NCBI GenBank assembly: GCA_963924555.1
Contig: OZ004585.1
Coordinates: forward strand, 5,221,488-5,285,487
Reading direction: 5' to 3'
Length of the DNA: 64,000 nt
From: Crambe crambe
Lineage: Eukaryota > Porifera > Demospongiae > Poecilosclerida > Crambeidae
Shown here: piece after piece, positions 1,943 to 44,058 of the stretch
Numbering within the stretch: the first letter of the stretch is position 1
Layout: each line of letters starts with the position of its first letter
Position numbers and translations under genes: made by a program
The notes under the pieces: model-generated
What the model was told of the DNA's origin: nothing
Database searches by the model: none
What the model saw: the letters and a program-made list of their open reading frames with translations, nothing else

Positions 1943-2035
1943 AAACAGTTAAACCATGCCTTGCCCTAGTGCTGTATAGTGTGGGCATCATGCAGTATAT
2001 CCTGTACAGCCCTCATAGGCATGGTTTAACTATTG
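1943..2035. repeat. Hairpin repeat, present in both copies
   Basis: Arms AGTTAAACCATGCC and GGCATGGTTTAACT enclose a second inverted pair around CTGTACAG. The same hairpin is at 30477-30592 in copy 2, with a longer matching stem, so it predates the 28-kb duplication. Confidence 0.6.
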
Positions 2036-2126
2036 CATAAGTTTGTGGGCACTATAAATTGTGTGTGAATACAGCAAAAGTTTGATCAAGCTAGTTATCA
2101 CCATTACGTACAAAACAATCAACTAC

Positions 2127-2934
2127 CTTCTCCTATCAATTTAACCAGCTGAATATGACGACCATGTATGATCAAGTTGGACTCATAAAAAATTCTGAAC
2201 ATTGAATTTTTTTCTCTCTCATCTTGAAGTGCTATAGAGTCCACTGCATCTGCAGGAATGTTTGATTCCAAGATTCATGCTTATCTTAAATCATTCCTTA
2301 CATACTTGTGCTACCAGAAGGTTCTGTATTTGCATTTCCATCTCTTGACCTACGTAGGTAAAAATTAAAATAATAGGGACTAATACTATTGCCCAGTAAG
2401 ATCTTTCAATGCTGACTCCCTTCAATTATTCTGTGTCCATGCATTGCAAAAAAATTCTAATAGGGACACTATTCTGTTTACCATTTTGGTGTTAGACACC
2501 TGACCTATCTTATTCACTATAGAAATAATTAAGATGTCAAGACACTTTAACATAACAAAATTAATCAAGACACTTTATTATTCTATGTCCCACACTATAC
2601 TGCTATAAAATGAAGGATACCTATGTATCTAGTTATAGGACACTTTATTCTGTATGTGCCACACTTTACTGCATGCTAGAACTAGTCGGGACACTTCATT
2701 CTGTGTTCCACTTCAGTGCTATAAAATATGGACACCTATTTATCCCAGAAGAGTCAACATTGAGAGGTTTATACTGTATTTTATCAACTTACATCACTTC
2801 TCTGATTTCTGTACTATTATCATGGCGGTTTTTGATAACATCATTTTTTATCCTCTTACAGACAATCCACAAGCATGTTGAAACCAAAATAACAATTATC
2901 ATCAATGGTACGGCCAGAATGAATAAGACAAAAT
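2127..2934 (-). CDS. A1 transmembrane and juxtamembrane exons
   Basis: Exon 2793-2934 encodes a hydrophobic helix starting [20 protein letters not shown], followed by the basic stop-transfer CKRIKN. The 44-bp exon 2306-2349 and exon 2127-2249 carry the cytoplasmic juxtamembrane part, ending [13 protein letters not shown]. These exons have the same sizes (142, 44 and 123 bp) in A2. A 1-bp length difference from A2 at about 2256-2260 lies upstream of the acceptor and is therefore intronic. Confidence 0.8.
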
Positions 2935-5900
2935 CTGAAACTGAATGTATGAAGTGTTTTTAACTTTCGTGAATATTCTTTAGAGACACTGACCACACCC
3001 ATTGTAGTTACATAATTATTATAGCCAGTTAGTTAGCTAAAGCCAAAAAACAAAGAATTAGCTACTAGTAGGAAATGTTAATTGTGAGGTATAAATTGAA
3101 GTGTGAACAGTACATGATTGAAACCTTGAAATCTTACCCCATAAAAGTTTCCCACCACGTATGGTATAATGATAGGATTTGATTCTGATCAATCTTCCAC
3201 ACGAGAAACGGTTGCTGTTATTTTTGTTCTTCAACACTAATCCAGTGCAGTTTTAGCTTATGAAGCAAGTAGTTATTTTTAAGCCATTTAATTGCAATTG
3301 TGCAAAACAAGACTTCCCTTACATTGTGTGGTGGTGGTATACTCATCTACCAGTGCTGTGATCACTGGCTATACACCAGAGTATGTTAAATATTATGTGT
3401 GCAACAGTGTTGAACTGCACGCATACTTTACCTCTGCATTCATCGCCACGCATCACATATCCTGCCCTGCAAGTACATGTGAAGTAACCATTGGTGTTAT
3501 TACATACTCTATTGGCATAAAGAGAACAGTTATGGAGTCCACGAGCACATTCATCTTCATCTAATAAGATTATAAAAAATTGTCATGTCAGAAAATCACT
3601 ATGTAGCTCCTCTTCATTGGACATTGGAACATTTTTATAACTGTAAACTTATAATTAGGATGAAACAAGCTATACAGAAGTGGCAGTGACATCTAATCAT
3701 GGTTTTTTTCTTTCACCTTGATGTAGGCGACCTGCTAATTCATGCAAATTCCGCTAAAAATAGCTATACAAAGTAATCATCTTTAACAGCTACAAGGATA
3801 AATACCTTCACATGTTCTTTGATCAAGTGACAGGATGTATCCAGACTCACACAAGCATATAAAAGAGCCATTGGTATTTTTACATGAATGACTGCAGGTG
3901 CTATTTTCACATTCGTTAATGTCTGCATGGTTGATAAAAAAATACCCATCACTTTTGGAATGAATTGGCACACTCCAGACTGCCTTATAGCATGCACAAG
4001 TAGTTAAGTGGTATTGGTGCATTTAATCTCCACAATGGAGTGATAAAAAGTGGAACTAGGGATGTAGCTCGAGAAATTATAAGTGAGCTAAGTCTAATAA
4101 TAACACATCAACACAGCCGAGCTGGGACTCTGGAAGCTCATGCAGAGTGCAGTCAGTATACAGTGTAAGAATGTAATCCACATGTATACTTTATAATAAT
4201 GATAATTGCAATATTGATTTGATAGCAAAGCCTAATATATAGGAACACTGAGAATTATTGCTAACTAGCTATAGCTATCAAGCTGACACATTCAAGTGTT
4301 ACTGCAACACACACCATTTAACATTGTATAGTCACTTTGCTTGATGTTAATTTTTTTACAGTGGCAGCTCATAATTATTTATAGCTACCTATAACAATCA
4401 TTGAGGTTACCAATGCAAATGTTGCTAGAAGGGTCTGCTGAATGATATCCATCACGACACCTGCATGTAAAGCTGCCATCATTATTGATGCAATGGGTTG
4501 AATCCAGGTCACAATTATGTGTTGCTGCAGTGTGACACTCATTAGTATCTAAAAATTTTGAAAATTATTTTCATGACTTTACAAAAAACAACAACTTTTC
4601 ACAGAATAATATGATGTATGATAATTGGGGTGAACAGAGTGATCCCAACACTAAGGAGTTGGTTGAAAATTTTCTTCCATGTTTGTATGTCCTAATGTTG
4701 TTTCTTTCATGATGATCTTGAGCATGCATATTCACCCACAATGCTTGCATTTCCCCATCACAGTCTGGCAACAAATAGTAGATTTGGTCAGTTATGTAAA
4801 ATTTTGGTAGCATAGAAATTGCCTTGAACTAAGCACTGGCTAAGTTCTCGAGTTTCAACTGGTCCGGAGTAGAAGTCTCAGTAAACAGCTGTAAAAGTTT
4901 GTTAGGCTAAAAGCTTAGGCAGCATTTAGCTAGAATTATGAAGTTACTAAGTTATCTATATTTTTTTCTTCCTTGAGCTTCGATCGGAGCTTGGCATTGA
5001 TAGAATGCAAGAAATGAGATTCTTTCTTATGTGAGTTCGAAACTACACCCTCCATCTTTGCTGTTCAATATTAATTTTAGTGTGGGGGTGGTGTATCTGG
5101 AAATAATGTTCATGCAGTTTACGGACACTTCCCTGAGCTTTTTAAGAGCTGTTACTCTGTGGCATCATAGAAGATAGGGGAGATAATGGTATTATGAATA
5201 TTATGAAACACTTTCTTGGAATCCATTTTCCTACATGGTTAGCCCTACCCCTTGCCCTACGTAAATACTGAAAGTCTATGATTTGTGAGGCATTTGGCAT
5301 TATCTTCAGAATGTAATCATTCCAAAATCTTTATGTACTTAATATATGGTTTGTAAACTTTTAATGAGTACGAGGGATGTATCCAGTTTAACCCTTTGGC
5401 ATCAAAAATCATGCACATGCATGCAGTTATCCAGGAGAAATATACTGCTCATCATTGGCATGTCGGCACTATCAGTAAACAGAGATCTCAGAAAACAATA
5501 TAACTATCTGGTAAACTCTTTGATTCAAGTGATTTCACTTTGAAGAAGCTTTGATATTTGCTTTCGGTACTCTTTTTTCTCTCCAAAGGAATGACTAGAA
5601 ATGCAGGCCTATACTTGCCTATGTTGTTTGGAGGAGAAGAAGCGGTCAAAAACAGTGGCTTGTGCAGCTCGAGCTGCAAGTCAGGTTGTCATGGGGATCA
5701 GTGTCCAATTTATCATGTGGTGTGTCGATCCCTTCTTGAGCCAGAGCTAGAAAAGAAGATGGCACTACTGAACGTAAAGGGCTAAAGCTCAAGGCCCGAG
5801 GGTGTGCAGTGTTCGAGGGCCAAGAGCTTTAAATCCAGATACTCCCAAGCAGGAGGGATAAATTATAATTATTTTTTGTGTCTGCCAAGTCCGAAGGCAG

Positions 5901-8900
5901 TGCGCAAAGCACCAGCTTGCTGTTGACCAGCTAGAATATTCTGTTTTTTATACTAGCTACTCTCAGAAAAGCTTGTTGGGTTTGAAATGTGGAATATTAT
6001 TCATTGACAACGGTGCACATTTATAATGATATTCATTGACCACTTTCCACATTTCAAACCCAACAAGCTTTTCGGAGAGTAGCCAGCATAAAAGGCAGAA
6101 CTTCCAAGCTGTCTTACTGCATGGGCTGGCCAATTTGTTCCTAGTTGCCCCACTAGGTCAGTGCCGAATCATGGTACCCTGCCCTGCATGGGTGAGTTAA
6201 GCACAGTGAGTGCGTGGGTGGGTGGCAGCTTTGGGCTGGGCATGACACAACAGGCTATATAGCTATAATATGTACAGTGAAGTAAATTTCTGTTTATTCA
6301 CCTGTACATGTTATCCCATCAACACCAATGGAGTATCCATCTCTACAGGTGCAAGTGTGATGTGTAGCATTACGTGTACAATTAAAAGTACAGTTATTGG
6401 TGATGCCGTCCTGACATTGCGTGTCATCTGTACGGGTGGGAAGAGGATAAAGAGTAAATAATTATAGAGGAGCAGATTTTTTTAAACATGGACTACCTTA
6501 AGCTTGTTGATAACCACTCTAGCAATAATGCACGGTGCTATACACTAGTATGCAAAGGCCATTACAATGGAAACTCTAGATACATAATTATGTATGGCAA
6601 CTCTTGATGCTTAGTGTGTGTTATTCCTTACACAATGTATTCCAGGACACAGAGTACCTACTCACCGCATTTTGAAATGATAGTTGTTTCATTAAAAGAG
6701 CCTACACGATTTTCCTTCTTGCAGGTAACACCAAGTCTCTCCACAGATCCCAGAGTAGTGAGATTAATAACCAAATGAGTATCATTGATCAAAACTGCTA
6801 AATAGGAATCATTCCCTAAAATGTGTGTGTCTGTGGTCCCATTTCCTGTGACAAACCAAGTCGTTGTTGGAACAGGTATGATATTGACATTCCGTGTCTT
6901 GCACTGCAGAACTGCAGTTTCGTCTGTGAAGTCATTGCCTTCCAGACAAAAATTGTTCCCAATATCATAAACTAATCCAGTTATCGGACGGACAACTGCA
7001 TGTGAAATGGAAAATGCTATTTATCATCAGTTAGCTACAATATGCACGAAGTGGAAATGCTATTAGGAGATCATGCATGGAGCACTTGGTTGAAGATGCA
7101 ATGCTAATAATGGATGTGACATCATAATGGTCTACATGCATTGAAGTAAAACCTCCGAATAACAACCACCTTTGGGGACAGGTCCTTTGCCTAGTTGAGA
7201 TTGAGGATGGCCTCTCTTCTTTTATAACCCGTCTAATATTTTATTGGTGAATAATTTTATTTTGTACCTGCAGTATTTGTATTCAAAACAAAACTTCTAT
7301 CTGAAAATAAACACTGTAAAGCTATTTAACTTACTTAAAGAATACAGGAGCTGCTGATCGAAAAAAAAGAAAAAAAAAAGAAAAAAAAAAAAAGAGCTAC
7401 TACACCAGATGGCTTCATGACAAATCTTAGAGCTTTCTTTCTACTAGTAGTTGTACTTGAGGACATAGTTATACATAGTTTCTGTTCAGAGTTTGGAGTG
7501 TCTGCTCATCTGGAAGGTCAATCTGTTCCACTTATTATAGAGCGTCTACATGGCTGCTCTTTAGGAGCTTGTTGTTCGGAGGTTTCAATTATACTTTGAA
7601 AGTTATTACAATTTACCTTATACATGTGTAGTTATCTTAGGTCTTAGAACTCTATCAATTATTATGCAATCACCTTGATTTACTCTTATTTCTGGACGAA
7701 TACCACCTATAAATAATTATTATGACAAGGAACTAAGTTCTGAAAGATAAAGAATGCAGGATGATTGAACTGCAGCTATACCGTAGCATACCTATGCATT
7801 CATCACGGTTACTAGGAGAAGGAAAATATCCAACAGAGCAGCTGCAGGTGAAACTACCATCCATATTGTTACAAACGCTATTAGCTGAACAGTTATGAAG
7901 ATCGTTCGCACATTCATTGATATCTAAAAAGGAAAAAATGAGTATTATACCAAGTAAACTAACGTACAATATCAATTTTGTGGAAATGTTCTTATTACAT
8001 GAAATTTACTAATGTACATGTATGTAAAAGCTAATCACAAGTGAGCAAGATAGTAAACACAAAATTTTCACCAGTATTCTTAGTAGCAAATTTGACTTAT
8101 TTTAGCTGCTGGATCAATTTCCCCCTTCTCATGAAGGTTAGCTGATATACAGTGTATATGGGAATTATTATAGTGTAAATTTCATGGCTTGCAAAGATTG
8201 ATTGCTGAGAACAATTCATTCCTGAACAAATCATTATAAACATAGAATGATATGCTATAAGGTGATGTACGTATGTACCTAAACATTGAATTCCATTTCC
8301 AAAAAAGCCTTGTTTGCAGGAACATATGAAGCTCCCATCAGTGTTAATGCATGACCCATCGGGGTGACAATTGTGAAGATTAGTTGCACACTCATTCAGA
8401 TCTATTTTTTTAAATGAAAGCAATGCAATGGCAATGACAGACACACAGACACAAGTAGTTGCAATATTCAGTCCACTAAACCATGGAGAAACCCTTTCCT
8501 TCCCTCCCCCCAATTCAAGGCTTTATCTTACCACGACAGCGTACTCCATTCTGGTCCAACTCAAAAAGGTAGCCTGGATTACAGAAGCACTGTGATGGAT
8601 TGCCATTGCTGAGCATGGGAAGACATCGGCATGCATGAATGGTCTCTGGATTACAGATACCTGGAGGGACATGATAATGAACAAAGATGAGAGGAAGTTA
8701 CCATGATGTGATGGAGAATTAAATATGGTACAACTTAAACCACACATTCCAAGAAAAATGATAGATGCTAGCCAATCTATTGCCTTGGAAAATGGTTATG
8801 TATAACACTGCTTGTGGTTAGCATCCTCCTACAGTATGTATGCAGCTGGGATCACCACTTACATGCATGCTGACAGCAATATCTTAGTCTAAGAAGTTGA

Positions 8901-11900
8901 AGCACTAAATGATTTTTCACTGCTTTTTATGTTGCACGAATATACCCTAGTTATATAAATATAGCTAACTATTCACATACTGGTCATGAAACAACTGTTT
9001 CCATTTCCACGGTAACCTTGTCGACAGTTGCAGCTAAAGGATCCATTGGTGTTGGAACAATTAGCATTCTCATCACAGGTGTCCAATTCGAGAGCACACT
9101 CGTCAATATCTGCCAGAAGAGAACATCAGAGAGCATAGTTGCACTCACTATTATATATATGGACTAGCTATGTAGTCTACATACAACGGAAGAACTTGTA
9201 TACCCATTTTAGTTCTGTATATCCAAAGAGCTACGTACCGACTTCTGTCATGCATGTTAGCAATAGTAAATTAGCCACTACAAACATCCTAACATCACAC
9301 TCTGACTTCTGACATGGTTGTAGGAAGCAGTCAGACAATTGACCATGGCCTAACCACCGACTGTTTCACCTAGCTACTGTTTCCAAACAACACTGTAAAG
9401 ATGATAATGCCCTGTAACTAACCAATCAGATTGCAGACCTAATGTTCTAAGATATTGCTCTAAAAATTCATAGCTTCAGGGTTTCCCAAGATCATCCAGG
9501 GATTTGGCCATAATAGGTGTCCGGGGATTTTATTAATTTATAATGGCTGAGTTATTATTGTGGTCAGTATTTTTTGATTAAGGAAATTATCTTCCTTATG
9601 GTTATTGCTTGAAGTTTCGATGACCATTGGGATATGATCCAAGGGATAACTTCTGGCTGGAGGCTCAGTGCAACCATTTATAGTTGATTTAGTTTAGCAA
9701 TAGCTATACATACTGAAGCTATACAGAGTCATTTGGAATTTGGGGTAGCTCAGTGTGAATTCCACCTCTCAGTAGCTATACTCAATACTGGCATATAAGT
9801 CCTGGGCATTAATTTTTCCATCCAATCAATTTAGGTCAAGTCACTTTAGTGGATCCTGTAGAACTACTATGTACACATGGGTTATAATACTTGCGTACCT
9901 TTACAGGTGAATCCATCCGCTGTCATGTAGTAACCAGGTTGGCATGTGCAAGAGTAGGAGCCATTATTGTTGAAACAAATGTCAGAACATCTATCAATAC
10001 CCATTTCACACTCGTCAATATCTGAAATAATAATTATAATTATACCGCAGTGATTTTTGCACTCTGAACCATATAGCTACAGCTATTCCCTTATTTGTGC
10101 ATTAATCAATCCACAAAAATTCCAGTTGCTTAAGAATAGCACTTAGGCAAATATTGGCAGTAAGCACTAATCATGATCGAATATTAATTAGATCCCAATT
10201 GTAAAAAAAACCTAGATAGCTATGACTGTAAGCTACTGTAAATACCTTCACACGTTCCATTTCTTGAAGTAAAGTTGAAGCCTTTATTGCAGAAACAATT
10301 TTTTGTCATACCTTCTCCTTCACACGTACAATTCTCATCAGGTAACTGTTGCTGACATCTAATCAAAGCTTCTAATATTTATGAAGCTTTGAGTAAATTA
10401 TACACTCTCCCTAACAACTTAATGCAACTGAATTTAGGAATAAGGAACACTGCACATACTTCTGCAAAACATTAAAACCTATTAATATTTACAAAGTTTA
10501 TTTGTATGAATTGAGCTAGGAAAAGTTTTAATGTTGCATTCTATAATCAATAACAATTTCTGCTCAAAGTGCTTAATCCCTTCTCCTAGATTCTATATAA
10601 TATTATGTGGAAACAACTGAGTGCAAAGGCAAGCTGTACTTTAATAAGGGAAAAAACATTTCTGTGAAATGAAAAAATCCCTACATATACGTCGGGTAGC
10701 TTCAAATTATAGTGTACGTATATGTAGGGATTGTTGGCTGGATATACAGAACAAAGATTGATCCCATTTCCACTCCCTACCCTTGTTTCCTTACTTTTTT
10801 GAGCAATGGTCATCCCTACATTTTTTTCATTTCACGGATATTTTTCCCCTTGCTTGTTCCTGGTCTTTTTTTCTCTCTCTTTATGGTTTCATGTATGTAT
10901 GCATAAATGCAAGAGTTCATTCTTCTATGTGTATGCAGTGACAGAAGTTTCTTGTTCTCCAATAGCATAGCAGCCTAATGATTTATCAGCGAGTTACGGC
11001 TTGAAATGTTGAGCGTATACTTGGAGGTCGAGGATGCAGATGAATCTGAAATAGAGTCCATGGTCCGGTAGATGGATTGGTGAATCTAGAATCCCCGAGT
11101 TGATAGAGTTCGAGTAGTCTATGATTGATCTAAAGCTAGCTAGCTAGCTTTTGGCTAGCTGAGTAATTTCGAAAAATTGGATATCAAATATATGCGCATG
11201 CGTATTATAAAAAAAATGGCTTCCAATAATTAAGTTAGTCAAGTACTGTGTTCCGTAGTGTGTCCTTTTTACATCGGCTCTTTTGAGGATTGATGAGTAC
11301 AAAAAATTGTAGTTGGTAGAATTTGGAGTGGATTTATCTAGAAATCATAGCTGTAGCTTGAGTAGTTTGAGAGATATGGTTGTCTAAGAAGAATAAGAAT
11401 GATAATAGAGAAGAAGAAGAATCCAGCGATTTACCTGCTTGCTGTATTTCTGAAACGGTAAGCTCCCTGGTCCTGTAACTTGGTCTGCACTTCGTAGTAG
11501 GCTCTAGTAGGCTGGATAATCATTCACAGTAGCTTTTGTTAAGTCTAAGTGGGGGAACTAGAATTTCACTTTTGTATTAGTCTATAGGCGGCGCGTGCAG
11601 CCGTCCGTGTCATCACTACATAGAGAGAGCTACCTCTCTCTCTGATAGGCTACCCACTCAATTATAAGTGTGTGAATGTCGATGGGGCCAATGTAAGTTC
11701 TAAGTGAAGTGTTTCGACAAGGTAAAGATCCTGGGTTATATTTCAATGATGCATATAACTGTAACTTTGCTTAGATTCTAAAAAATAGAAGGGGGTGGGG
11801 GAGGTCATTTTCATCACCCAGTCAAAGATCGGTGAAGTATGGATGGTGAAGAGTCATAGACTTTCAGCATTCAGTTGTAGAGAGCCAAAACTTATTATCT

Positions 11901-14900
11901 ACTAGAGCACTTAAGACTACTTTACTTTTATACACTTTGAGGTTGCTACTGACTGCTGAAACCTGGCCATTTTCAGCCATTTTTGACCTCTCGTATTTCT
12001 GAGGAAAAAGCAGCATTCGAGTTGATAGAGTGATCGAAGAGAAGAACTTGTGTTACTTGCTATCAAGAAATGGAGGACCTGTTATACTTTGCATCAGGTT
12101 GTCCAGTTGACTGAAGTGGGCATCATCGAGAATTTTCACTCTCGTTACAAGTATAATACTATTGGGTAAGCTCACTAGCTACAGTATAACTTAAGTATGA
12201 GACATTTTTCATGTAAGAACAAAAATAGATTATTATTTACTTGAATATGAATACGAATATTTAGAGCGATAGACTTTACGGTACAAAACACGTTTCACAC
12301 TTAGCTTAGCTAGCAGTTTGTTCATTCACTTCTTGTGTTTTTGTTGGAGTTTAACCAAATGTCCCTTTGAAAATACTTTAAACCAAAGGTGGGCTTCCTG
12401 ATCCGAAGGGGTAACTATCTAAGAACATGTTGTCTTCCATACATGTTATAGCTAATGTTTCCTGTTGCTAGATAGATTACAATTACTTTTTTGGTACTCC
12501 TGAAGTTTGTGTGGATATTGGAAAATATGCATGCCAGCATAGCACACCAGCAGCTAGTACTTCTCAAGAGAGTTTGCTACAGAGATTAGCCAATCTTCTG
12601 TGCAATCGTGCATATAGAGTGCATGAAGGAGAAACAACAGACAGATTCTTCTTCTGATGAGGTTGTGGTCGATCATTTCTGCTTGGAGAGCACCTTGATA
12701 AGCAGGTACATTTGTACCTATCAAAGGTCAAGGATCAAGGAGGAGTCCATACACTTTTGTAGCTGCGATGGTCCCTCACACAACTGGAGAACTCGTGGTC
12801 GTGCTAAATCTAGCTAGCCAGCTGGCATGCATGACGCACTATTTATTTTGCACACTTTCAGATTCTATCGAATTAAATAGCTACCGTCATTGGTATCTTT
12901 ATGAGGAAATTGTATAATATAATTCCCGTCAATATGTCCGGCTATATGGTACTACCAGTTTAATAAGGGAAAAAGCATTTCGTGAAATGAAAAAAGATGT
13001 AGGGATGACCACTGCTCAAAAAAGTAAGGAAACAAGAAGGATGGAAATGGGATCAATCTTTGTTCTGTATATCCAGCCAACAATCCCTACATATACGTAC
13101 ATTACTACACTATAATCTGAAGCTACCCGACGTATATGTAGGGATTGTGGGCTGGATATACAGAACAAAGATTGATCCCATTTCCATCCTTCTTGTTTCC
13201 TTACTTTTTTGAGCAGTGGTCATCCCTACATCTTTTTTCATTTCACGAAATGCTTTTTCCCTTACTTGTTCCTGGTCTTTTTTTCCTCTCTTTTATGGTT
13301 TTAGCTATGTATAAGAGTTCATTCTTCTATGCAGGGACAGATGAAAGAAGAATAGCACAGCAGCCCAATCATATTTATCAGGAGTCAAGGTGTTGTGTTA
13401 TTGTTGAGCTATACTTGGAGGTCGAAGATGCTGAAATAGAGTCTACCGTGGTGAATCTAAATCCCCGAGTCGATACAGTAGTCTATCATCATTATCTAGA
13501 GCTAGCTAGTTAGTTAGCTAGCTGAGACAGCTGAGTAATATTATAATTTCGAATAATTGGATATCAAATACATGCGCATGCGTATTATAGAAAAGATGGC
13601 TTCCTAATTGAATTAGTCAAGTGCTGTGCTCCGTAGTGTCTCCTTTTTCATCGACTCTTTCGAGGATCAACGAGTAGAAAAGATCGTAGTTCGTAGAATT
13701 TGGAGTGGATTTATCCAGAAATCATAGCTGTAGCTTGAGTGGTTCGAGAGATATGGTTGTCTAGGAAGAAGAATAATAATAGAGAAGAAGAAGAATCCAA
13801 CGATTTACCTGCTTGCCGTATTTCTGAAACGGTAAGCTCCCTGGTCCTGAAACTTGGTCTGCACATTGTAGTAGGCTCTAGTAGGCTGGATAATCATTCA
13901 CAGTAGCTTTTGTTAAGTCTAAGTGGGGGAACTAGAATTTCACTTTTGTATTAGTCTATAGGCGGCGCGCGCGGCCGTCCGGGTCATCACTACATAGAGA
14001 GTGCTACCGCACTCTCTGATTATATAATAATATTAGTGATAGTACTTGAGAAAAGGGGTCTTGTGGAGCAAGAATTCAAAACAGAGTTGATATCATTCTA
14101 AAGCTCTTAATCTGGAGATTTATATGATTCTTAAATCACCATTTTTTGTTCTGGAGTTATACTTAATTGAATTTTACATATCTCATGTACATTTTATATG
14201 TAGCTTGTAAACTTTACAAGCATTTAACAGCTTTTAATGTTTTGCTTGATAAGATCCCTTTTTCCCAAGTACTATCACTACATCAGTATACCCAACTTAT
14301 TGGGCAACCTGCCGAATATCTGTGATATATAATATAATATAGCTATACAGAGCTCATAAATTTTGGCAGTTTATTGAATTTAAAGATGAGGTAGTGTCTT
14401 ATTCTCTATGAAATAGGCTCTTACTGCCTGAATAGTCTGTGGGTAGGTGTCTTACTTGTCTTACTAGGTAAGAGACCTAGCCACACTACTAGAACATGAG
14501 ACTGAGCACCTGATTAAGGACTAAAGATCAAAGCATACTATGCATACCATATTTTCTAAACATTACCATTTTAACAATTAGCTACTATAGCATTTTGGGT
14601 CATCCTTATTTGTGGAGATTTTTCTTGTTGGAAATTATTAGCTACTTTTATCTTACTCATGAAAATACCTTACCATTAGATAATGATAAATTGAATTGTT
14701 GCATTAGCATTTCTCTTCCAGAGACACTAGGATTATCATATTCCACTGTAATGTTACATGTATATATTCCCACATCAGCTGATGGATTGAAGTTTAGGAC
14801 TATTAATTTCATGTCGTATTTACAGAGGGTAATATTTGATTCAATACAAGTCTGATGCTGTTGTACTCTGTACTTCTCAGTACTCTGACAGAGTTGGGTG

Positions 14901-16552
14901 GAGAAAGTTAGTCGATTAGAACAGAGGTACACTTCTTCACCATCCTTATAGACAGTTAGTTCTATGATTTTTTTGGTTCTATTACAAAATCCACCATCAA
15001 TAAACTTTACTCTGGTGTTTATTGATACATTTTCATTTGCTCTACCAATGATCTGCATGATTCTGGGACATACTTCAAATTCTCCAGGACATGATACAAA
15101 AAATGGCCTTCCTGCAGGATGATGTGGACACTAATACAATAGTGAAATTCCAGTTCCCCACTTGGACTTAACAATAGAAGTAACCTTCAAGGTTCTGAAG
15201 CATCTATATTCACCACACTACCTTCATCTATCTTACCATAATATGCCTAGCTTCATTCAAACACCTCAAAATGAAGTTGACTAGCTATAGGACCTTAGCT
15301 TAGGCATTCTCATTTTACATAGTAAAAGGTAAAAGGTCCTTCAACTGCTGACTCAAGAAAATCTGAATGAATCAAGTCATTTTATAATTTTGTCATTCTG
15401 TCCATATCTGCTGACTCAAGAAAACCTGATTGTAGCAATCAAATCATTTTGTTGATTTAGAAGAACTGTGCTGCTCACCTGCAGGTGAATAGCATGTGTT
15501 GTCTTCATGAGATCTCGATGGGTAAGTTTCAGTTGTACTCATCCCTTCTTGTCTATAGACTTTGACTTGTCATCTATATTATTAGCTATAACTTTCACCA
15601 AGACTCTATATTTAGAAACCTGGGGTTTAGTGACCCGAGTGCAGTGAGGGCACTACTAAGGGCTCAAGGATTATAATAATATAGATCTCGAGGAAGTGCT
15701 AAAGTTAGCTTGTAAGCTTTGTGCACAGAGATTCGAGCCAACGAGTTCATAATAAAATGGCCCGAGAGGAATGCCTTAAGAGAAGGTTTATACATGTGAC
15801 TCTCTGCTTCAGCAGAATTAGGAACCTATAAATATTGCTTGACTATAGACTAATAAATATTTTTCATTACTTGCTTCTTATGGGTATATAGCTAGATGGC
15901 CACTTCAAATGTATTAAATTTAATAAGGCATGCCAGGGATTGATACAGAGATCGTGAAAACCTGGGATTCCCCCCCCCCCCCCCCCCCCCCCCCCAAAAA
16001 AAAGAAAACCCCCCACCACTACCAAATTTATACAATGCGCCTATTTTCATTAAAATGTCTAAAATTTCACTTAGTAAGTTCAGGGCCTTCAATATGTATC
16101 ATACTACCGCACATTATGCATAGCTACTATGCTCCAACACACATTTGACACTCAGAATACACATGGTCCATACAATTACAATTTCCCCCTTCAAGCAAAA
16201 AATCCTGTATCAATTCCTGCATGCATTATGTTATTTCGAGCAATAAGACATTGTTCATACTAGCTATATAATTCTGCACATGCGACTGTATTACCTCGCA
16301 CGAACAAGCACAATGATGCTGGTTGTATAGTATTATTATCCACTCCACAATGGTAGGTGCCTTCTGCAAAACCATTAACCTCATGTATGGTCGACTCATT
16401 TCCATTTTGACGAAATGAATCATTCAGAGTTAAAGGTGCACCTAAACCATCCAGTGAGTCAATCCCATTCATGTATCTCCGTATGTACCAGGATGAAGAA
16501 GATGCATCAGGACCAGAGCACCGTGCTGATACTTGAATGTCAGAAAAGGGAT
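2127..16552 (-). CDS. Receptor tyrosine kinase A1 (Ig/EGF ectodomain), partial
   Basis: Minus-strand RTK gene; the kinase lies beyond the left edge and no signal-peptide exon was found. Exons in transcript order: 16295-16552, 14674-15111, 10246-10371, 9899-10021, 8981-9109, 8532-8660, 8279-8401, 7792-7923, 7268-7300, 6666-6995, 6302-6427, 4411-4548, 3806-3922, 3432-3560, 2793-2934, 2306-2349, 2127-2249. All have AG/GT borders and compatible phases, giving about 880 open codons. Order: Ig, Ig, six EGF, micro-exon, Ig, four EGF, TM, juxtamembrane. Several EGFs carry the calcium-binding D-x-N/D-E-C start. The last exon ends in LIGEG, the start of the kinase glycine loop, so the kinase should continue off-window. 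The role inferred from the family is a plasma-membrane receptor for an unknown ligand. No disabling change was seen in the part visible. Confidence 0.85.
3432..4548 (-). CDS. A1 EGF-like exons 8-10
   Basis: Three one-domain exons: 4411-4548, 3806-3922 and 3432-3560. Each starts after a split Asp codon (G|AT or G|AC), with six cysteines in EGF spacing and motifs such as [13 protein letters not shown] and [13 protein letters not shown]. The N-x-N-G-S/Y-F-x-C core supports calcium-binding EGF. All are phase 1-1. They are nearly identical to A2 32964-33101, 32368-32484 and 31994-32122; one visible change is NECENS in A1 versus NECDNS in A2. Confidence 0.85.
5946..6093. repeat. Foldback element, about 148 bp
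   Basis: Arms of about 45 bp: TTTATACTAGCTACTCTCAG on the left, and a near reverse complement ending GAGAGTAGCCAGCATAAA on the right, with the core GCTTGTTGGGTTTGAAATGT in both. It lies in the intron between EGF7 and EGF8 of A1 and is conserved at 34473-34620 in A2. Confidence 0.75.
6302..6427 (-). CDS. A1 EGF-like exon 7
   Basis: One EGF-like domain in a 126-bp, phase 1-1 exon, with the motif [14 protein letters not shown] and the closing GVDGITCTG. It lies between the third Ig domain and the membrane-proximal EGF set. The A2 counterpart is 34841-34966. Confidence 0.8.
6666..6995 (-). CDS. A1 third Ig-like domain
   Basis: 330-bp exon. Cysteines flank a [10 protein letters not shown] strand, consistent with an Ig fold, with Cys in AVLQCKTR and in GVTCKKENR. 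Several N-x-S/T glycosylation sites are present. The domain sits between EGF6 plus the micro-exon and EGF7. It is nearly identical to A2 35212-35541, with for example Thr versus Ser in LTTLGS/LTSLGS. Confidence 0.75.
7268..7300 (-). CDS. A1 33-bp micro-exon
   Basis: A 33-bp segment bordered by TTTTCAG and GTACAA splice sites. It is phase 1-1 and encodes [10 protein letters not shown], linking EGF6 to Ig3 in frame. Conserved without change at 35814-35846. Inferred from splice signals and phase; transcript evidence would be needed to prove it. Confidence 0.5.
7792..10371 (-). CDS. A1 EGF-like exons 1-6
   Basis: Six one-domain exons: 10246-10371, 9899-10021, 8981-9109, 8532-8660, 8279-8401, 7792-7923. 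Numbers 2, 3, 5 and 6 start with the calcium-binding D-I/L-D/N-E-C. Numbers 1 and 4 are a different EGF-like type with a close C-x-C pair ([15 protein letters not shown]). EGF1 of A1 keeps its first cysteine ([11 protein letters not shown]), which A2 has lost. All exons are symmetric phase 1-1. The role is likely a spacer or ligand-contact stalk. Confidence 0.85.
10643..10853. mobile_element. Foldback MITE family F1, copy with shortened left arm
   Basis: The right arm matches the full palindrome at 12962-13262 (GTAGGGATTGTTGGCTGG through TTTCATTTCACGG). The left arm keeps only its ends, AATAAGGGAAAAAACATTTC and TCCCTACATATACG, with the middle deleted. The same deletion is seen at 39198-39407, so it predates the 28-kb duplication. 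Confidence 0.75.
10643..11650 (+). repeat. About 1-kb repeat R1, first unit
   Basis: Begins with MITE F1 and continues through a GCGCATGCG word at about 11190, a GAAGAAGAAGAA stretch at about 11410, and a closing TACATAGAGAGAGCTACC hairpin. A diverged second unit is at 12962-14020. In copy 2 the units are 39198-40205 and 42290-44310. The orientation given is that of the GCGCATGCG-to-GAA order. Confidence 0.65.
12029..12657 (+). other. Two plus-strand coding-like open segments, unknown
   Basis: 12029-12165 follows an AG acceptor and is open for 45 codons ([18 protein letters not shown] start, FHSRYKYNT near the end), ending at a GTAAGC donor. 12472-12657 follows CCTGTTGCTAG and is open for 61 codons to TGA ([19 protein letters not shown] start). 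Both are kept in copy 2, where a 760-bp insert lies between them. The simple splice gives a phase mismatch, so the joining is unresolved. I do not recognise the product; it may be a decayed mobile-element gene or a gene nested in the intron. Confidence 0.3.
12962..13262. mobile_element. Foldback MITE family F1, near-perfect 300-bp palindrome
   Basis: The left end TAAGGGAAAAAGCATTTCGT and the right end are exact inverse copies over about 66 bp, and the arms continue with few mismatches to a loop near 13105-13120. The arms contain GTAGGGATGACCACTGCTC and CTGTATATCCAGCCAACAAT. There is no coding capacity. Other family copies: 10643-10853, 22996-23272, 30088-30230, 39198-39407, 42290-42605, 51247-51530. 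Confidence 0.85.
12962..14020 (+). repeat. About 1-kb repeat R1, second unit
   Basis: Diverged copy of 10643-11650 with the same order: MITE F1, GGTCGAAGATGC, GCGCATGCGTATTATA, the GAAGAAGAAGAATCC stretch, GGCGGCGCGCGCGGCC, and an end hairpin GAGAGTGCTACCGCACTCTC. Both units are in both 28-kb copies, so this duplication is the older one. Confidence 0.65.
14034..14283. repeat. Foldback repeat
   Basis: Arms TTAGTGATAGTACTTGAGAA and a matching TTCCCAAGTACTATCACTA enclose about 190 bp. Copy 2 has the same at about 44321-44572. Confidence 0.6.
14674..15111 (-). CDS. A1 second Ig-like domain
   Basis: 438-bp exon, phase 1-1. An Ig-type ending [11 protein letters not shown] follows a NFNPSADVG turn; extra cysteines ([12 protein letters not shown] near the start, QLCQSTEKY) suggest an added disulfide. 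It has N-x-T sites. About 34 residues after VKF differ at around ten positions from A2 although the flanks are nearly identical (see findings). Confidence 0.8.
15112..16294. other. A1 intron with about 1.1-kb extra sequence
   Basis: The A2 counterpart (45418-45579) is only 162 bp, so roughly 15170-16255 is extra DNA in copy 1, or was lost from copy 2. It contains a 26-base C run at 15970-15995 followed by A-rich DNA. No supported exon is seen. Confidence 0.6.
16295..16552 (-). CDS. A1 first Ig-like domain
   Basis: 258-bp phase 1-1 exon. Motifs [20 protein letters not shown] and [12 protein letters not shown] give the Ig Cys-Trp-Tyr-x-Cys pattern. Two codons shorter than A2 near the N end (FSDIQ versus FSVPVPQ). 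This is the most upstream exon recognised; an ATG in the same frame a few codons upstream would give a start without a signal peptide, so an unseen leader exon is likelier. Confidence 0.75.
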
Positions 16553-24554: not shown

Positions 24555-26626
24555 TTAATACAAGTAGTTATAGCTATCCTCAGTAGCCTCAGAAAATTCA
24601 GAAAATGCTACATATCCAGCCACTTTTTCTAGTAATGAGTCAACTTTCTGCACTATGTCTTCAAAAGAGGGTCTCCTTTCAGGCGATTCACTCCAGCATT
24701 GAGTAATCAGATTATACCTGAAGTGAAAGGTAGAAGGTAAGTATGTATATAGCTACCTATTGGAAAGTTGAATTTGATGTACGTAACGAATCCTGCTATT
24801 TTAAAATATAGACTCAATTGAAATACTTTGGTTCCAAAGACGTTTCCAAGAGTTATGACATAGTACATATATACCACTTGCAAAGACTTCAGTATAGATA
24901 ATAGGAAGAGGTACAATGTAACTTGGAACCATAAAGGAATTTCATGCAAGGTAATGTTGTTTTTAAGCAGGCATGCTCACTCCACAATGTCTTTATGAAA
25001 TCTATAATTATAGCCCTTACACTTCAGAAGTGCAACTTGAATTGCTGGGTTTCTGCAGTCTCTGTCCACTCTTGAGATAGTCAAGCAGGGCCCAGGGGTG
25101 AATTCCAGGATAGGGGGTGAGACCAAGACTAAAGACTTCCCAGCATGTCACTCCATAGGACCACTGAAGTAATTAATTTTATTATACTGCTGTAATTGTG
25201 TACTTTGTAGTACATATATAATTAAACCCAGAAGACATGCCAAGTACAGTTAGCTAGATAGTAAATCATCTTACTACACCTGTCTTCTCAGAGAAGATCC
25301 GATCGAAAAGACTCTCTATGGCCATCCATTTAATAGGAAGTCTCTCGTGAGAGTCAGGTCTTTCTTCACTTCGTCCCTGTCTGAAGTAATTTTTAGAGTA
25401 CATGTCTTCTGTAAGACCAAAATCACCAACTTTGATAGTGAACTGGTCGTCTATCCTATTTTAAAAATGGGCAAATTATTATTTACTTACTGTTACAGAT
25501 AATTAGCTATAGAGGCCTACATACATGCAGTTGCGAGCAGCCAGGTCTCTGTGCACAAATTTCTGTGCTGACAAGTAATTCATTCCTTTGGCAATTTGGA
25601 AGCAGATTGATAGCAATTTTCTCTGGGTACTCTTAATCTAAGGCAAAATATTGTTTAGACATGTAGATAATGGATACAAGCTATTATCTGCATGAAGTAA
25701 TAATATAGACAGATTATGACAGCTTGGCTGCTTCAAAAGTCTTACAATGTTGCTTCATGCATTCTATAATAATTCAGAGAGTGTGCCTTTCAACAGATAT
25801 GCATGCATGATGCATGCTTAGTAGGGGAATGGGTGTGTTATGGAACAGTGAGATGTTATGGAACACTTTCTCAAAATCCATAATAATTATTTAGGTGGGA
25901 AAGTAAAAGTTTGTGTTTTACAATGCCCCACAGAATTATACCTAATATCCAACTGATGGCAACAGTCACTTTAAAGAAAGCATTAGACTTTTATAACATA
26001 GGCTCATAAGGGTACTGTGCCCTACATGACATTGTATACTATCTTAACTACAATAGAAACAGAGTGTTATTAGCTACGTAGCAATTAATTCCTGCAATTT
26101 CATACCATTGTTTCTCCAGCATCTCCAGCAATAGTAAAACAAGATCTCTCTTTCTTCAAGTAAGTTAAGAGATTACCATTAACCATGAATGGCATGACTA
26201 TATATGGGGTTTCTCCTACATCAATGCACACTCCTATCAGCTTCATCACATTTACATGGTCGAACCATCTCATCTTCTCACTCTCTATCATTAGGCCTTT
26301 TATATCGTTAACTGTGAAGGAATCTGAATGCATAAAATGAAGGGAGAATAATAATTATGCCTTGTTCAACAATTAAATAATTACCACTAGCGTTTAAGGA
26401 ACAAATAAAAATTTACAAAGATGACTTAAAGTTCTGAATTCTTCACAAAATACACACCAAAGTCCAGAATAGAGAGTTCATCATAGCTACTGCTTTCTAC
26501 ATAATACCATAGTGTGTCAGTATAATAGCTAATACTCACTTTTCAATGTCTTGACAGCTACTACTTCACCTGTAACCCTTCCTTGCCAGCCTGTGAGGTA
26601 GCTTTGGTACACCAGTCCATATTCTC
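24555..26626 (-). CDS. A2 tyrosine kinase domain exons
   Basis: Six exons. Visible kinase marks: glycine loop GEGEYGLVY (split across the upstream juxtamembrane exon), VAVK lysine, Glu in [28 protein letters not shown] catalytic loop (tyrosine-kinase form), DFG in KVGDFGL, activation loop with Tyr residues before IKWMAIESL, subdomain IX GVWSYG where DxWS is expected, and [12 protein letters not shown]. The tail ends YNYLY. The activation loop is five residues longer than in B. All other catalytic residues are present, so activity is possible but the Gly at IX makes it uncertain. Confidence 0.92.
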
Positions 26627-29600
26627 CTAAAATTATATCAGAGAGTATGGTAAGTAGGGATGGCATGGATTGCCCCATTACACTAATACTTAGTTTGTTT
26701 TTTTTTTGTTTTTTTTTGTTGTTGTTTTTTTCATAACTCCAGAATCAGCAACTAACTTGAAGACAGAATACCTTGTATGAAGAGCAGAAGACAAAGTAGT
26801 ATCATTTCACAGTGACTTCTAAAATCGCTATTTTCATCTGACCAGTTGTTCATCATGATCATGACCATCATCATCATCATCATCATCATTATCATCATTA
26901 TCATCATCATCAAACAACTTATTTCAGAAATGGTTCATTAAAATGTTATACCACACTACTCAAAATTGACTGCTTTATAATCAAGTTCAAAAAAGCATGT
27001 CATTTCCTACTTGCTAGCTTTCAACATACAATGTGGCAGACATTTTTATGCCCCGCTTCCCTATACACGTGATTCTTGGACCTTGACCCCACAACTGAAG
27101 TGAATCTGTCATTAGCTTTCTTTTGATGTTGGTCTATCAATGCTCAGGGCGTAAAACCTAGGCACTAGTCTGGTCATGAATCAAGCCTTGATGCAATACT
27201 AATCAAGTACGAGTGAATGCAAAAAATTTCTTCGAAATAAAAATGTGAAGTAGGGATGCTATTATAACTGCAGCTTCATTATGAAAACCAAGTACTGCAG
27301 CATCGAAGCAGTATGGCCCAAAAATCTAGCTGGAATATGTATTATAACTGCATGCAAGAGAGTGAACTTAGTGAAGTGACCCTTACCCATCATCAAGTAC
27401 GAGATACTATTCCTACTTCACTCCCTTGGCCCTTGATCATGGGAGTGAAGTAGGAATAGTATCTTGTACTTGATGATGGGTAAGGGTCACTTCACTAAGT
27501 TCACTCTCTTGCATGCAGTTATAATACATATTCCGGCTAGATTTTTGGGCCATACTGCTTCGATGCTGCAGTACTTGGTTTTCATAATGAAGCTGCAGTT
27601 ATAATAGCATCCCTACTTCACATTTTTATTTCGAAGAAATTTTTTGCATTCACTTGTTTGCATTCTTTTTCTTTGTGATTATGAAAATTGATAGACACTA
27701 AAGGTATAGCTAATGCTTCCTCAATTGAACTAAATTAATTTAATGATCAAATTTTATAGTATTTCATTCCGTTCAGGGAGGAGAGTTTGAAGGATGATCA
27801 TCTGCAGTGTAATGGAGTACTGAAAGGAGTGAACATTTAGAAAGTGAACGGCATTAGCTAATTGTTATGTATGTGATCACTGAAATAATTATTGAGATGG
27901 TACGTATGTCTTGCTTGAGGGAGGAGTATGGGGAGTTTATGCAGTGGCTGTGCATATTTGGTGTAGTGATCATAATGGCCACATCCTGTGCAGGTGTTAT
28001 ATGAGGAGAACTGCTATTAATTGCCCCACCCCTTTTATGAGGTAATATCCCGAAGATTATTTTCATACGAGGCCCAGTTAGATTTTAGGCTATCCCTACT
28101 TAACCTTTAGAAATTTTTTACGCTCACTTGTTTCTATCTTAGTGCTTGAAGTTGAATGAGGGAGGCTGCAGTACAGTACTATACAAAGCCAGCTCTACAT
28201 AAACCTTCTTTTGTAGGTACATACAGTGTCTCTGGTTGAAGAATTTGTTTAGCTATTTAAGTTTGGTTGATATGAAACTTTACAGCAACAGCAATGTAAA
28301 TGACATGTGCATGGCATGGTGAAGTGAGCTGACTACACTACAGCCAAGTACTGGCTATAATGCTATGCTACTATAGGATGCGAGCATCTGTACTGTAATT
28401 CAGCAAGGAGTGACTGGAACATCATCAGATAATAAATGAAAACTTTGGCTAGCTAAACTTACGTGGCTCCGCCTATAAGCCCCGCCCCCTTCAAAATGGC
28501 GTAGAAAGATTAGCAGTGTTCCAAGTGCTATAGAATAGTGAAGTAGAGCCTTAGTCAAAACTAATAGCAAAAGATCAGCCTCTAGGTGCCGCTCTAACAG
28601 ATGGCCAAAGCAGAATTTTGATGACTATAGCCAGTAAGTCGGTACGTCGATCTGATTATTATTATCCTTATTATTATTATAAAGAAATAGAACAAAAGTC
28701 AATTTTAGAACTCATTTTTTTCTTATGTTAGCGAATTTTTTTTGGCTTTTGAACATTCTCCTCTCTTCTTTGTAGATATAATAATTCACTGTAGCCTTCT
28801 GAGAACCTATAGAGTAAGGGTAGAAGAGAAAGAAGAGTTTTTAGTTTATACAGTCCTATGACCTTTGACCCGCCATCCCTACTTAGAGAGTGCTAGCGCA
28901 CTCTCTGATATCAGGTACATGCATAACACCAGTAAAAATTAAACACAAAATTAGGTCAATGGCGATCTTATTATTATAAACTGTATAGATACAAGCATTA
29001 GTCCTTCCAGATTTTATTTCAGCTCATGATGAAACCTTCAATGAATTACATAGCTGCAATACATGAACTATTAATTTGGATAGCAGGATCACAGCATCCA
29101 GTTGCCTATGTAATAGAGCATTATATCAAAAAGGTGATGAACATGCAAGTAAAGGGGAAAAAAATAAAAGTAGGGATGGCTGTGTGCAGTTCAAAAAAGT
29201 TCAGCAACAAGAGAGTGAACTTCAGTCAAGTAACCCTTTCCCCATCACCAATATTAACAAACTATGAACTAACTATTCCCACTCTTCTCCCTTTATATCT
29301 TATTTTGGCCTGTCATGGGAGTGAAGTAGGAATAGTGATTTGGTAATATTGGGGTTACTTGACTGAAGTTCACTCTCTTTTGGCTGAATTCTTTTGAACC
29401 ACACACACAAATCCCCACTTTTCTTGGAAAAAAATTTTTTTTTCCTTTATAATTATGATATTGTGGCTATGCCAGCTAAATTACTTTGAGAGTGCTGGCT
29501 AGCCACAGACAAACAGGTATTGGAAGGCACATAATATATTACGTATAAGGTATAAGGCACATAATATATTACGTATAAGGTATTCACCCTACTTTTTCAT

Positions 29601-32600
29601 TTTGAGTATATTTTCCCTCGGTAAATTTTTTCATACCAATCCCCCTATAGCTACCTAGCTAGCAGGTAATTAAATAATGATGCCAACCCCCTTTCTTGAC
29701 AAGAAATTATGAACACAACTCAAAATTGAACCTTTGAATTGCATAAGTAGAAAAATGAATTTGTGCTGCATAACAGAAGAGAAAAGATGAGAACATGCTC
29801 AGCAGACAGAAAAATTAATTATGTGGTATAAAAGATTGAATACCACTAGTGGTACTGCTATGTACGTAATGAATAAAATGGTGTCCATTATACAGCTTCG
29901 CAGAACTATCTGAATTTTCTATGCAATGGCTCAGAAATGGATATTCTATGATGGTGGTAGTAATAACAAAAATGAAACTTCAAAGTGCCTACGAAAGCAG
30001 AAACATTTTGAAATAGAATACTATTTTTCTGTACATATCAGAGAGTGCGGTAGCACTCTCTATTTAGGGTTAGTCCAGAATGGGCATGACTATAATCTGA
30101 AGCTACCTGACATATATGTAGGGATTGTTGGCTGGATATACAGAACAAAAGATTGATCCCATTTCCACTACTTTTTTGAGCAATGGTCATCCCTACATTT
30201 TTTTCATTTCACGGAAATGTTTTTTTCCCCTCATAATAATTATATGTCCTATGAAGCCATATAACTACAGACCACCACTTGCCATAAAAGAAGTGTAGAT
30301 ATCAAGCTAACTTATTATTTCTACTTAAAGCCTTAAAGCCTACTTGCGGTTAACACGCTACTGCTCTATATGCCATACAGCAGACTTGTTTACATAGGCT
30401 GAGCCAACAAGGGAGGAGCGAGGTATTATTCATATCACCTAGGATGCAATATCAAGAAGCCATTATAGGCGATAAAATAGTTAAACCATGCCTCACCTTA
30501 GTGCTGTACAGGATATATTGGGGCTCCACCCTCAGGTGTCATGCATTATATCCTGTACAACCCTCGTAGGCATGGTTTAACTATTATATAAGTTTGTGTA
30601 TTGTGTGTTTGGATATAGCAAAAGTTGGATCAAGCTAGTTATCACCAAACAATTAATTACCTTCTCCTATCAATTTAACCAGCTGAATATGACGACCAGG
30701 TATGATCAAGTTAGACTCATAAAAAATTCTGAACATTGAATTTTTTCCCTTCTCATCTCGAAGTGTTATAGAGTCCACTGCATCTGCAGGAATATTGATT
30801 CCAAGATTCATACTTATCTTAAATCATTCCTTACATGCATGTAGCTACATACTTGTTATAATAGAAGGTTCTGTACTTGCATTTCCATCTCTTGACCTAA
30901 ATTTAAAAAAAAATAATAGGTAATACTACTGCTCAGTAAGATCTTTCAATGCTGACTCCCTTTAATTATGTCCATGCACTGCAAAAAATTCTAATAGGGA
31001 CACTTTTCCGTTTACAAAAATAAGGACACCTGACCTGTCTTATTCCCTATAGAAATAATTAACATGTCAGGATACTTTAACATACAAAATTCATCAGGAC
31101 ACTTTATTATTCTATGTCCCACACTATAGCTACTGCTATAAAAAAAGGATGTATCTAGTTATAGGACACTTTATTCTGATGTGCCACACTCCACTGCATG
31201 CTAGAACTAGTCGGGACACTTCATTCTGTGTTCCACTCCAGTGCTATAAACATATGGACACCTATTTATCCCAGAAGAGTCAACATTGAGAGGTTTATAC
31301 TGTATTTTATCAACTTACATCACTTCTCTGAGTTTTGTACTATTATCACGGCGGTTTTTGATAACATCATTTTTGATCCTCTTACAGACAATCCACAAGC
31401 AAGTTGTAACAAAAATAACAACTATCACCAATGGTACAGCCAGAATGAATAAGACAAAATCTGAAACTGAATGTATGAAGTGTTTTTAACTATAATGACT
31501 TTTCGTGAATATTCTTTAGAGACACTGATCACACCCATTGTAGTTACATAATTATTATAGCCAGCTAGTTAGGTAGCTAAAGCCAAAAAAAAAAACACCA
31601 AAGAATTAGCTACTATTCATAATAGTAGGAAATGTTATTGTGAGGTAAATGAAGTGTGAACAGTACATAATCGAAACCCTGAAATCGTACCCCATAAAAG
31701 TATCCCACCACGTATGGTATAATATTTTGATTCTGATCAATCTTCCACACGAGGAACGGTTACTGTTATTTTTGTTCTTCAACACTAATCCAGTGCAGTT
31801 TTAGCTTATGGCACTCAAATGTAGGGAGCAAGTAGCTATTTTAATTGCAAGCTGATCGACTGTGCAAAACAAGACTTCCCTTATATTGTGTGGTGGTGGT
31901 ATACTCATCTACCAGTGCTGTGATCACTGGCTATACACCAGAGTATGTCAAATATTATGTGTGAAACAGTGTTGAACTGCACGCATACTTTACCTCTGCA
32001 TTCATCGCCACGCATCACATATCCTGCCCTGCAAGTACATGTGAAGTAACCATTGGTGTTATTACATACTCTATTGGCATAAAGAGAACAGTTATGGAGT
32101 CCACGAGCACATTCATCTTCATCTAAAAAGATTATAAAAAATTGTCATGTCAGAAAATCACTATGTAGCTCCTCTTCATTGGACATTGGAACATTTTTAT
32201 AACTGTAAACTTATAATTAGGATGAAACAAGCTATACAGAAGTGGCAGTGACATCTAATCATGGTTTTTTTCTTTCACCTTGATGTAGGCGACCTGCTAA
32301 TTCATGCAAATTCCGCTAAAAATAGCTATACAAAGTGATCATCTTTAACAGCTACAAGGATAAATACCTTCACATGTTCTTTGATCAAGTGACAGGATGT
32401 ATCCAGACTCACACAAGCATATAAAAGAGCCATTGGTATTTTTACATGAATGACTGCAGGTGCTATTGTCACATTCGTTAATGTCTGCATGGTTGATAAA
32501 AAAATACCCATCACTTTTGGAATGAATTGGCACACTCCAGACTGCCTTATAGCATGCACAAGTAGTTAAGTGGTATTGGTGCATTTAATCTCCACAATGG

Positions 32601-44016: not shown

Positions 44017-44058
<42 letters not shown>

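Follow-up and report, generated by a model that had tools for sequence, protein, structure and literature searches.

Contig OZ004585.1 (C8 below) of the sponge Crambe crambe, in an assembly of 143.1 Mb, carries two receptor kinase-like genes, A1 and A2, whose units form a tandem duplication offset by ~28-30 kb. They fall within C8:5221488-5285487, the 64,000-nucleotide stretch that we call the window and whose positions are used throughout. As fits a demosponge, the genome has silicatein-type exons in which Ser replaces the catalytic Cys; this was read in 3 of 12 stretches fetched, whereas 3 others had Cys and 6 gave no legible motif, and Cys was also seen at four larger loci. The question raised by this locus is why two genes that are nearly identical over a central ~10 kb differ sharply in a short part of their second immunoglobulin (Ig)-like domain, Ig2. 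We show that this patch of difference is real and well outside chance. In the five closest copies of the Ig2 family, moreover, residues in the patch and in the 3' third of the exon are replaced, relative to silent change, at about six to ten times the rate of the Ig2 segments before and between them. We lean towards the explanation that the patch belongs to a recognition face under diversifying selection, which stays divergent while gene conversion homogenises its flanks.

A divergent patch in Ig2 of A1 and A2

The Ig features on which the comparison rests are as follows.

14919-15001, minus strand: A1 hypervariable patch, with 15 of the 20 exon differences and 10 residues changed
45225-45307, minus strand: A2 counterpart of the patch, from direct A1/A2 comparison
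14674-15111, minus strand: A1 Ig2 exon (V-set-like), phase 1-1, acceptor TGCAG, donor GTAAGG
44980-45417, minus strand: A2 Ig2 exon, from direct A1/A2 comparison
14674-14809, minus strand: 3' third of A1 Ig2, the second fast stretch, omega 2.1 in the five closest copies
16296-16529, minus strand: A1 Ig1, conserved among paralogs, A1-A2 dS 0.158
45581-45814, minus strand: A2 Ig1, counterpart of A1 Ig1

The Ig2 coding stretches of A1 (14672-15112, minus strand) and A2 (44978-45418), 441 bp each, differ at 20 bases. Fifteen of these lie inside 14905-15005 (101 bp), with the outermost at 14919 and 15001, and they change ten residues (I38V, R45K, K48E, I50V, E51K, Y55D, G58D, V61P, Y62F and S65F). 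An earlier note on this DNA had described a cluster of about 15 differences within about 100 bp of Ig2, and the comparison bears this out. Its observation that most of the changes alter amino acids also holds, as nonsynonymous and silent changes (N:S) number 12:3; the silent codon differences inside the patch are two, I49 and L63 (CTC/TTA). Around the patch, 0 of 111 bp differ on the 5' side and 1 of 87 bp after it, and the nine EGF and Ig3 exons differ by 0-2 residues each, in agreement with the near-identity of flanks and EGF exons that the note had claimed.

Divergence along the exon was not uniform. Among 17,455 intervals of 85 bases, taken over 17,989 aligned A1/A2 positions, the patch ranked first with 15 mismatches. 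At the background divergence of 0.8% found across 4757-12237, the Poisson probability of such an interval is ~1e-15; with the rate of the most divergent segment (3.7%) one obtains 1.2e-6 for a single interval, or ~2.5e-4 over 211 intervals. Further divergent intervals were seen at 3206-3290 and 2482-2571 (13 mismatches each) and at 1995-2086 (11), and all three sit in a segment that is divergent throughout (1988-4757, 3.7%).

Tests for selection along the Ig2 exon

The Ig2 protein gave 41 matches in the genome, 30 of which were fetched. L014, whose exon is identical to that of L013, and the partial L038 were excluded from the codon models, which were run on nine copies, on 19 others and on the five closest distinct copies. 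Distances and trees used five copies, the codon list eight, and the profile alignment 16 of the 30, chosen to span the family. Omega (dN/dS, the ratio of nonsynonymous to synonymous divergence) was fitted to the 5', patch, middle and 3' segments of the exon, with dS shared among them.

In the five closest copies the segment omegas were 0.35, 2.0 (patch), 0.22 and 2.1 [likelihood-ratio test (LRT) 50.0, p 7.8e-11], and fixing the patch omega at 1 gave an LRT of 5.28. With nine copies the values were 0.32/1.33/0.33/0.97, and with the seven that exclude A1 and A2 they were 0.35/1.04/0.35/0.82 (contrast p 5.8e-6). Site models yielded an M1a-M2a LRT of 17.3 in the five copies, with the M2a class at omega 3.8, and of 12.8 (p 0.0016) in the nine, for which M8a-M8 gave 13.1; of the 31 sites listed for the nine copies, 14 fall within the patch and 13 within the 3' third, 27 in all. 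Between A1 and L011, N:S was 4:7 in the flanks and 15:2 in the patch (Fisher p 0.010). Diversifying selection is supported by these codon comparisons among close paralogs, not by the A1/A2 pair alone.

The 19 other paralogs had flat omegas (0.46/0.47/0.36/0.47, p 0.23) and an M1a-M2a LRT of 0.6, and omega = 1 was rejected for their patch (omega 0.47, LRT 48.7). Hypervariability across the whole Ig2 family was rejected on this flat profile.

We placed the fast stretches tentatively on the Ig fold by profile comparison. A Pfam scan of A1 Ig2 gave no match, and weak V-set matches at E up to 10 occurred in 5 of the 16 Ig2 paralogs, A1 not among them. The D, G and Y of the D-x-G-x-Y motif are invariant across the 16 aligned copies, weak matches to PDB Ig chains were obtained with the family profile (best E 0.016), and in one paralog residues 62-127 align to V-set profile positions 31-97 (E 0.025). 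These weak profile coordinates would put the patch into the B-C-C' region of a V-set fold, and the other fast stretch would include the FG-loop position after D-x-G-x-Y. The 3' third of the exon holds this motif and the FG-loop-like part after it, and its length varies. Both A1 and A2 carry a two-residue T-C insertion just after the motif (A1 14756-14761), giving a cysteine there, and this insertion is absent from the 28 other aligned Ig2 copies.

From where and how the patch varies we infer a recognition function. The patch and the FG-like stretch would form one ligand-facing surface on which diversifying selection makes and keeps differences, and neighbouring copies would be kept alike in the rest of the exon and in ~10 kb beside it through gene conversion or unequal exchange. 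As receptors, A1 and A2 would then have an almost identical stalk and signalling half and differ in their recognition faces. Their patch is best seen as divergence of older date, which either escaped the recent homogenisation of the tract around it or was re-established afterwards. The partner could be a marker of self, another sponge cell, a symbiont or a microbe.

Several results weigh against selection on a recognition face. The A1/A2 pair itself has dN 0.16 and dS 0.14 (omega ~1.2, indistinguishable from 1), and its 12:3 in the patch equals the 4:1 in the rest of the exon (Fisher p 1.0). The diversifying selection that the earlier note had suggested, and the raised dN/dS that it had proposed to look for along the exon, are thus supported in the five closest copies and not in the pair taken by itself. 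A patch at Ig1-level divergence without constraint would be expected to hold 12.3 nonsynonymous and 3.6 silent changes, close to the 12 and 3 seen. Set beside the relatives, the L of codon 63 seems to have arisen twice in parallel, each time by an F-to-L change from TTC, which would leave ~1 silent change in the patch; even one silent change among 15 is not significant (P 0.13). The nine-copy patch omega had an LRT of only 2.05 against 1, leaving out A1 or A2 singly gave 1.5-1.6 (indistinguishable from 1), and without both the patch omega was not above 1. Other Fisher tests were not significant (L011-L013 patch, p 0.10; A1-L013 patch and 3' third, p 0.07). The codon models are our own implementation with branch lengths fixed from IQ-TREE, and the site tests assume one tree, an assumption violated by gene conversion. 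In the 19 other paralogs the M7-M8 comparison (a rough fit, LRT 10.6) leaves room for some positive selection. The best V-set score of the 16 copies was 24.2 bits (E 4.2e-5) against a Pfam cut-off of 26, and a common transcript for Ig2 and the kinase is our assumption, based on their order, strand and phase.

Probably homogenised flanks and competing explanations

Divergence between A1 and A2 is patchy (~0.8% in the centre, 2-4% outside), and the near-identical centre is delimited as follows.

4757-15116, no strand assigned: A1 side of the near-identical central region; A2 side 33284-45422

The region consists of several collinear pieces with insertions between them, which diverge by 0.65-0.84% outside the Ig2 exon. 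The nine EGF/Ig3 exons hold 1 silent change in ~287 sites and the kinase exons 10 in ~159, and the Ig1 dS of the pair is about the level of A1 to L015 (0.129). The Ig1 value suggests a greater age for the pair than for the near-identical tract in which the patch lies. Because silent divergence differs between the EGF/Ig3, kinase and Ig1 exons, the central ~10 kb appears to have been recently homogenised, with the patch, ~110 bp inside its edge, keeping a divergence near the Ig1 level.

An unlikely but serious competitor to selection on a recognition face does without positive selection. Here the patch would be a weakly constrained stretch in old duplicates, 100 bp missed by a conversion that recently made most of the tract alike, showing the true age of the pair at an omega of ~1. 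The joint rise of nonsynonymous and silent changes to an Ig1-like level fits this account, as do the patchy divergence of the duplication, with its Ig1 dS of 0.16, and the patch omega of 1.04 once A1 and A2 are removed. It is opposed by the five-copy patch omega of 2.0 (LRT against 1, 5.3) and the M2a class at 3.8. In the 19 other paralogs this stretch is under constraint, and so it is not by its nature free to vary; also, two parallel changes at codon 63, as its codons suggest, would leave about one silent change.

The earlier note's other suggestion was a gene-conversion tract from another paralog. In this account one copy would have received the patch from a paralog or allele that this assembly lacks. 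We consider this improbable. A local cluster of differences that includes a three-base codon swap (GTG/CCA) is what such a tract might leave, and at codons 45, 48, 55 and 58 the A1 or A2 codon is common to L011 or L013, as in a mosaic. Raw silent divergence in the patch is also above that of its surroundings: 3 changes were seen against 0.18 expected (P 0.0009), although P is 0.17 if one is counted. Genome-wide searches for a donor, however, found no paralog with the same tract among the best candidates: besides the tract itself, the best of 18 matches to the 101-bp tract of A1 was 90% identical and the best of 10 to that of A2 was 88%. The A2 codons 49, 50, 55, 61, 62 and 65 are absent from the other seven copies in the codon list. 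A separate genealogy for the patch was not supported, as the patch tree still joins A1 and A2 as sisters [approximately unbiased (AU) test of the alternatives, p 0.04 and 0.17]. Gene conversion is more plausible as the maker of the identical flanks than as the donor of the patch. An assembly effect seems very improbable; by this account alleles were placed in tandem and appear as A1 and A2 or as the near-identical distant blocks, or else the consensus is wrong at the patch. Retained haplotypes can give near-identical distant copies of the kind seen here (L013 and L014 share an identical Ig2 exon; L015 and L016 are one base apart), and divergent Alr1 alleles of Hydractinia were kept as separate genes, according to an excerpt of PMC11067881. 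A1 and A2, however, follow each other on a single contig, their introns differ in content and both have intact frame and splice sites, and sequencing errors would not favour differences that change codons and keep the frame.

The receptor family and its neighbourhood

Selection on a recognition face would act within a genomic cluster of Ig superfamily paralogs. Of the 41 Ig2 matches, 26 lie on C8 between 3.90 and 6.16 Mb (two of them pieces of one copy), and the six closest copies (A1, A2 and L011-L014) fall within 0.4 Mb. L011-L014 form a two-copy block at C8:4.886/4.922 Mb that is repeated ~265 kb away at 5.151/5.186 Mb, either a recent duplication or a retained haplotype. Ig1 was found in the flanks of 18 of the 30 loci, that of L011-L014 being outside the fetched flanks, and was weakly V-set-like in one of two members scanned. 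It is more conserved than Ig2 among paralogs; L031, for example, is 95% identical to A1 in Ig1 and 53% in Ig2.

Both units lie on the minus strand. Ig1 and Ig2 come first, the EGF exons follow with Ig3, an Ig-like exon, in their midst, and a transmembrane segment precedes the tyrosine kinase. The parts downstream of Ig2 are as follows.

3430-10354, minus strand: A1 EGF exons with Ig3 (6664-6990), near-identical to A2
31992-38909, minus strand: A2 EGF exons with Ig3 (35210-35536), from exon comparison
2870-2932, minus strand: A1 transmembrane segment, by hydropathy
31396-31458, minus strand: A2 transmembrane segment, by hydropathy
24561-30823, minus strand: A2 juxtamembrane and tyrosine kinase exons, with HRDLAARN

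The kinase of A1 is found just beyond the left edge of the window, at C8:5219488-5221297. The exons agree in order, strand and phase with predicted splicing of Ig1-Ig2 to the EGF-kinase part, and in both genes the transmembrane segment found by hydropathy sits between ectodomain and kinase. The catalytic-loop HRDLAARN is present in A1 and A2; Pfam PF07714 matched three of the five A2 exons scanned, two above cut-off, and the Ig3 exon of A1 had no Pfam match. At 25278-25280, in a D-V-(W) motif after the KWMA segment, the A2 kinase has Gly where A1 has Asp. This Asp is usually conserved, and the change may impair A2 kinase activity.

The two halves of A1 and A2 have separate relatives. For the EGF-Ig3-kinase half, the best relative outside C8 is on C10 (L057, C10:4639500-4654484; Ig3 88% and kinase exon 89% identical). 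It starts with two other N-terminal exons; a third receptor in the window has both of them, and neither was found in the A1 or A2 unit. Downstream of Ig2, L011, L020 and L022 have a transmembrane-like exon, and no such exon was seen between the Ig2 and EGF exons of A1. The two units (3430-16529 and 31992-45814) therefore look chimeric, as if a C8-type Ig-Ig module had been joined to an EGF kinase. In a bolder picture, to which we give little credence, the C8 array would be a sponge recognition complex of neighbouring Ig-Ig receptors, with A1 and A2 joined to an EGF-tyrosine-kinase half. The V-set-like face of patch and FG-like stretch would then be a polymorphic determinant of specificity, for self/non-self or for a partner, that remains divergent while the rest undergoes conversion.

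Graft rejection in sponges is finely specific, and control by a polymorphic genetic system is expected; the aggregation factor is the candidate named, and its adhesion genes were not found enriched after grafting (excerpts of PMC5450542). Ig-domain receptor tyrosine kinases are described from the sponge Geodia cydonium (Schaecke et al. 1994, cited in an excerpt of PMC12018476), and they resemble the predicted A1/A2 products in linking an Ig-like ectodomain to a tyrosine kinase. By description, A1/A2 differ in belonging to a large clustered family, in having EGF repeats between Ig and kinase, and in a patch with measured omega. Later reports are said to describe polymorphic Ig domains in G. cydonium, and variable Ig domains have reportedly been proposed for self/non-self recognition. 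The Alr family of Hydractinia, a cnidarian, was shown to control the allorecognition response (excerpt of PMC11067881). A1/A2 differ by description from Alr in being followed by a kinase. Exchange among copies, which we propose for A1/A2, also occurs in the Alr family. Sea urchin Sp185/333 genes and plant R-gene clusters are likewise clustered, repeat-rich and diversified by conversion, duplication and deletion (excerpt of PMC5103432), but A1/A2 are different proteins, likened by description. No report of this Ig receptor family was found in the partial texts of the limited literature collection searched. A compact patch with signs of diversifying selection among close paralogs, in a cluster of Ig receptors backed by a kinase, supplies defined coordinates whose genotypes can be compared with fusion or rejection. 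It would also be a clear case of selection and homogenisation at work on adjacent 100-bp stretches.

The window also holds a third receptor kinase gene of another type (53531-61873, minus strand), which resembles the gene left of A1 in L039. Of its three N-terminal exons, which precede a kinase, one scored above the Pfam Ig cut-off, one was weakly Ig-like and one had no match. A run of 26 C at 15970-15995 in the Ig1-Ig2 intron of A1, not present in A2, is a possible weak point of the assembly. Long palindromes occur at 27209-27657, 12964-13264 and 42358-42588 (97%, 92% and 90% self-complementary, respectively) and are probably fold-back mobile elements.
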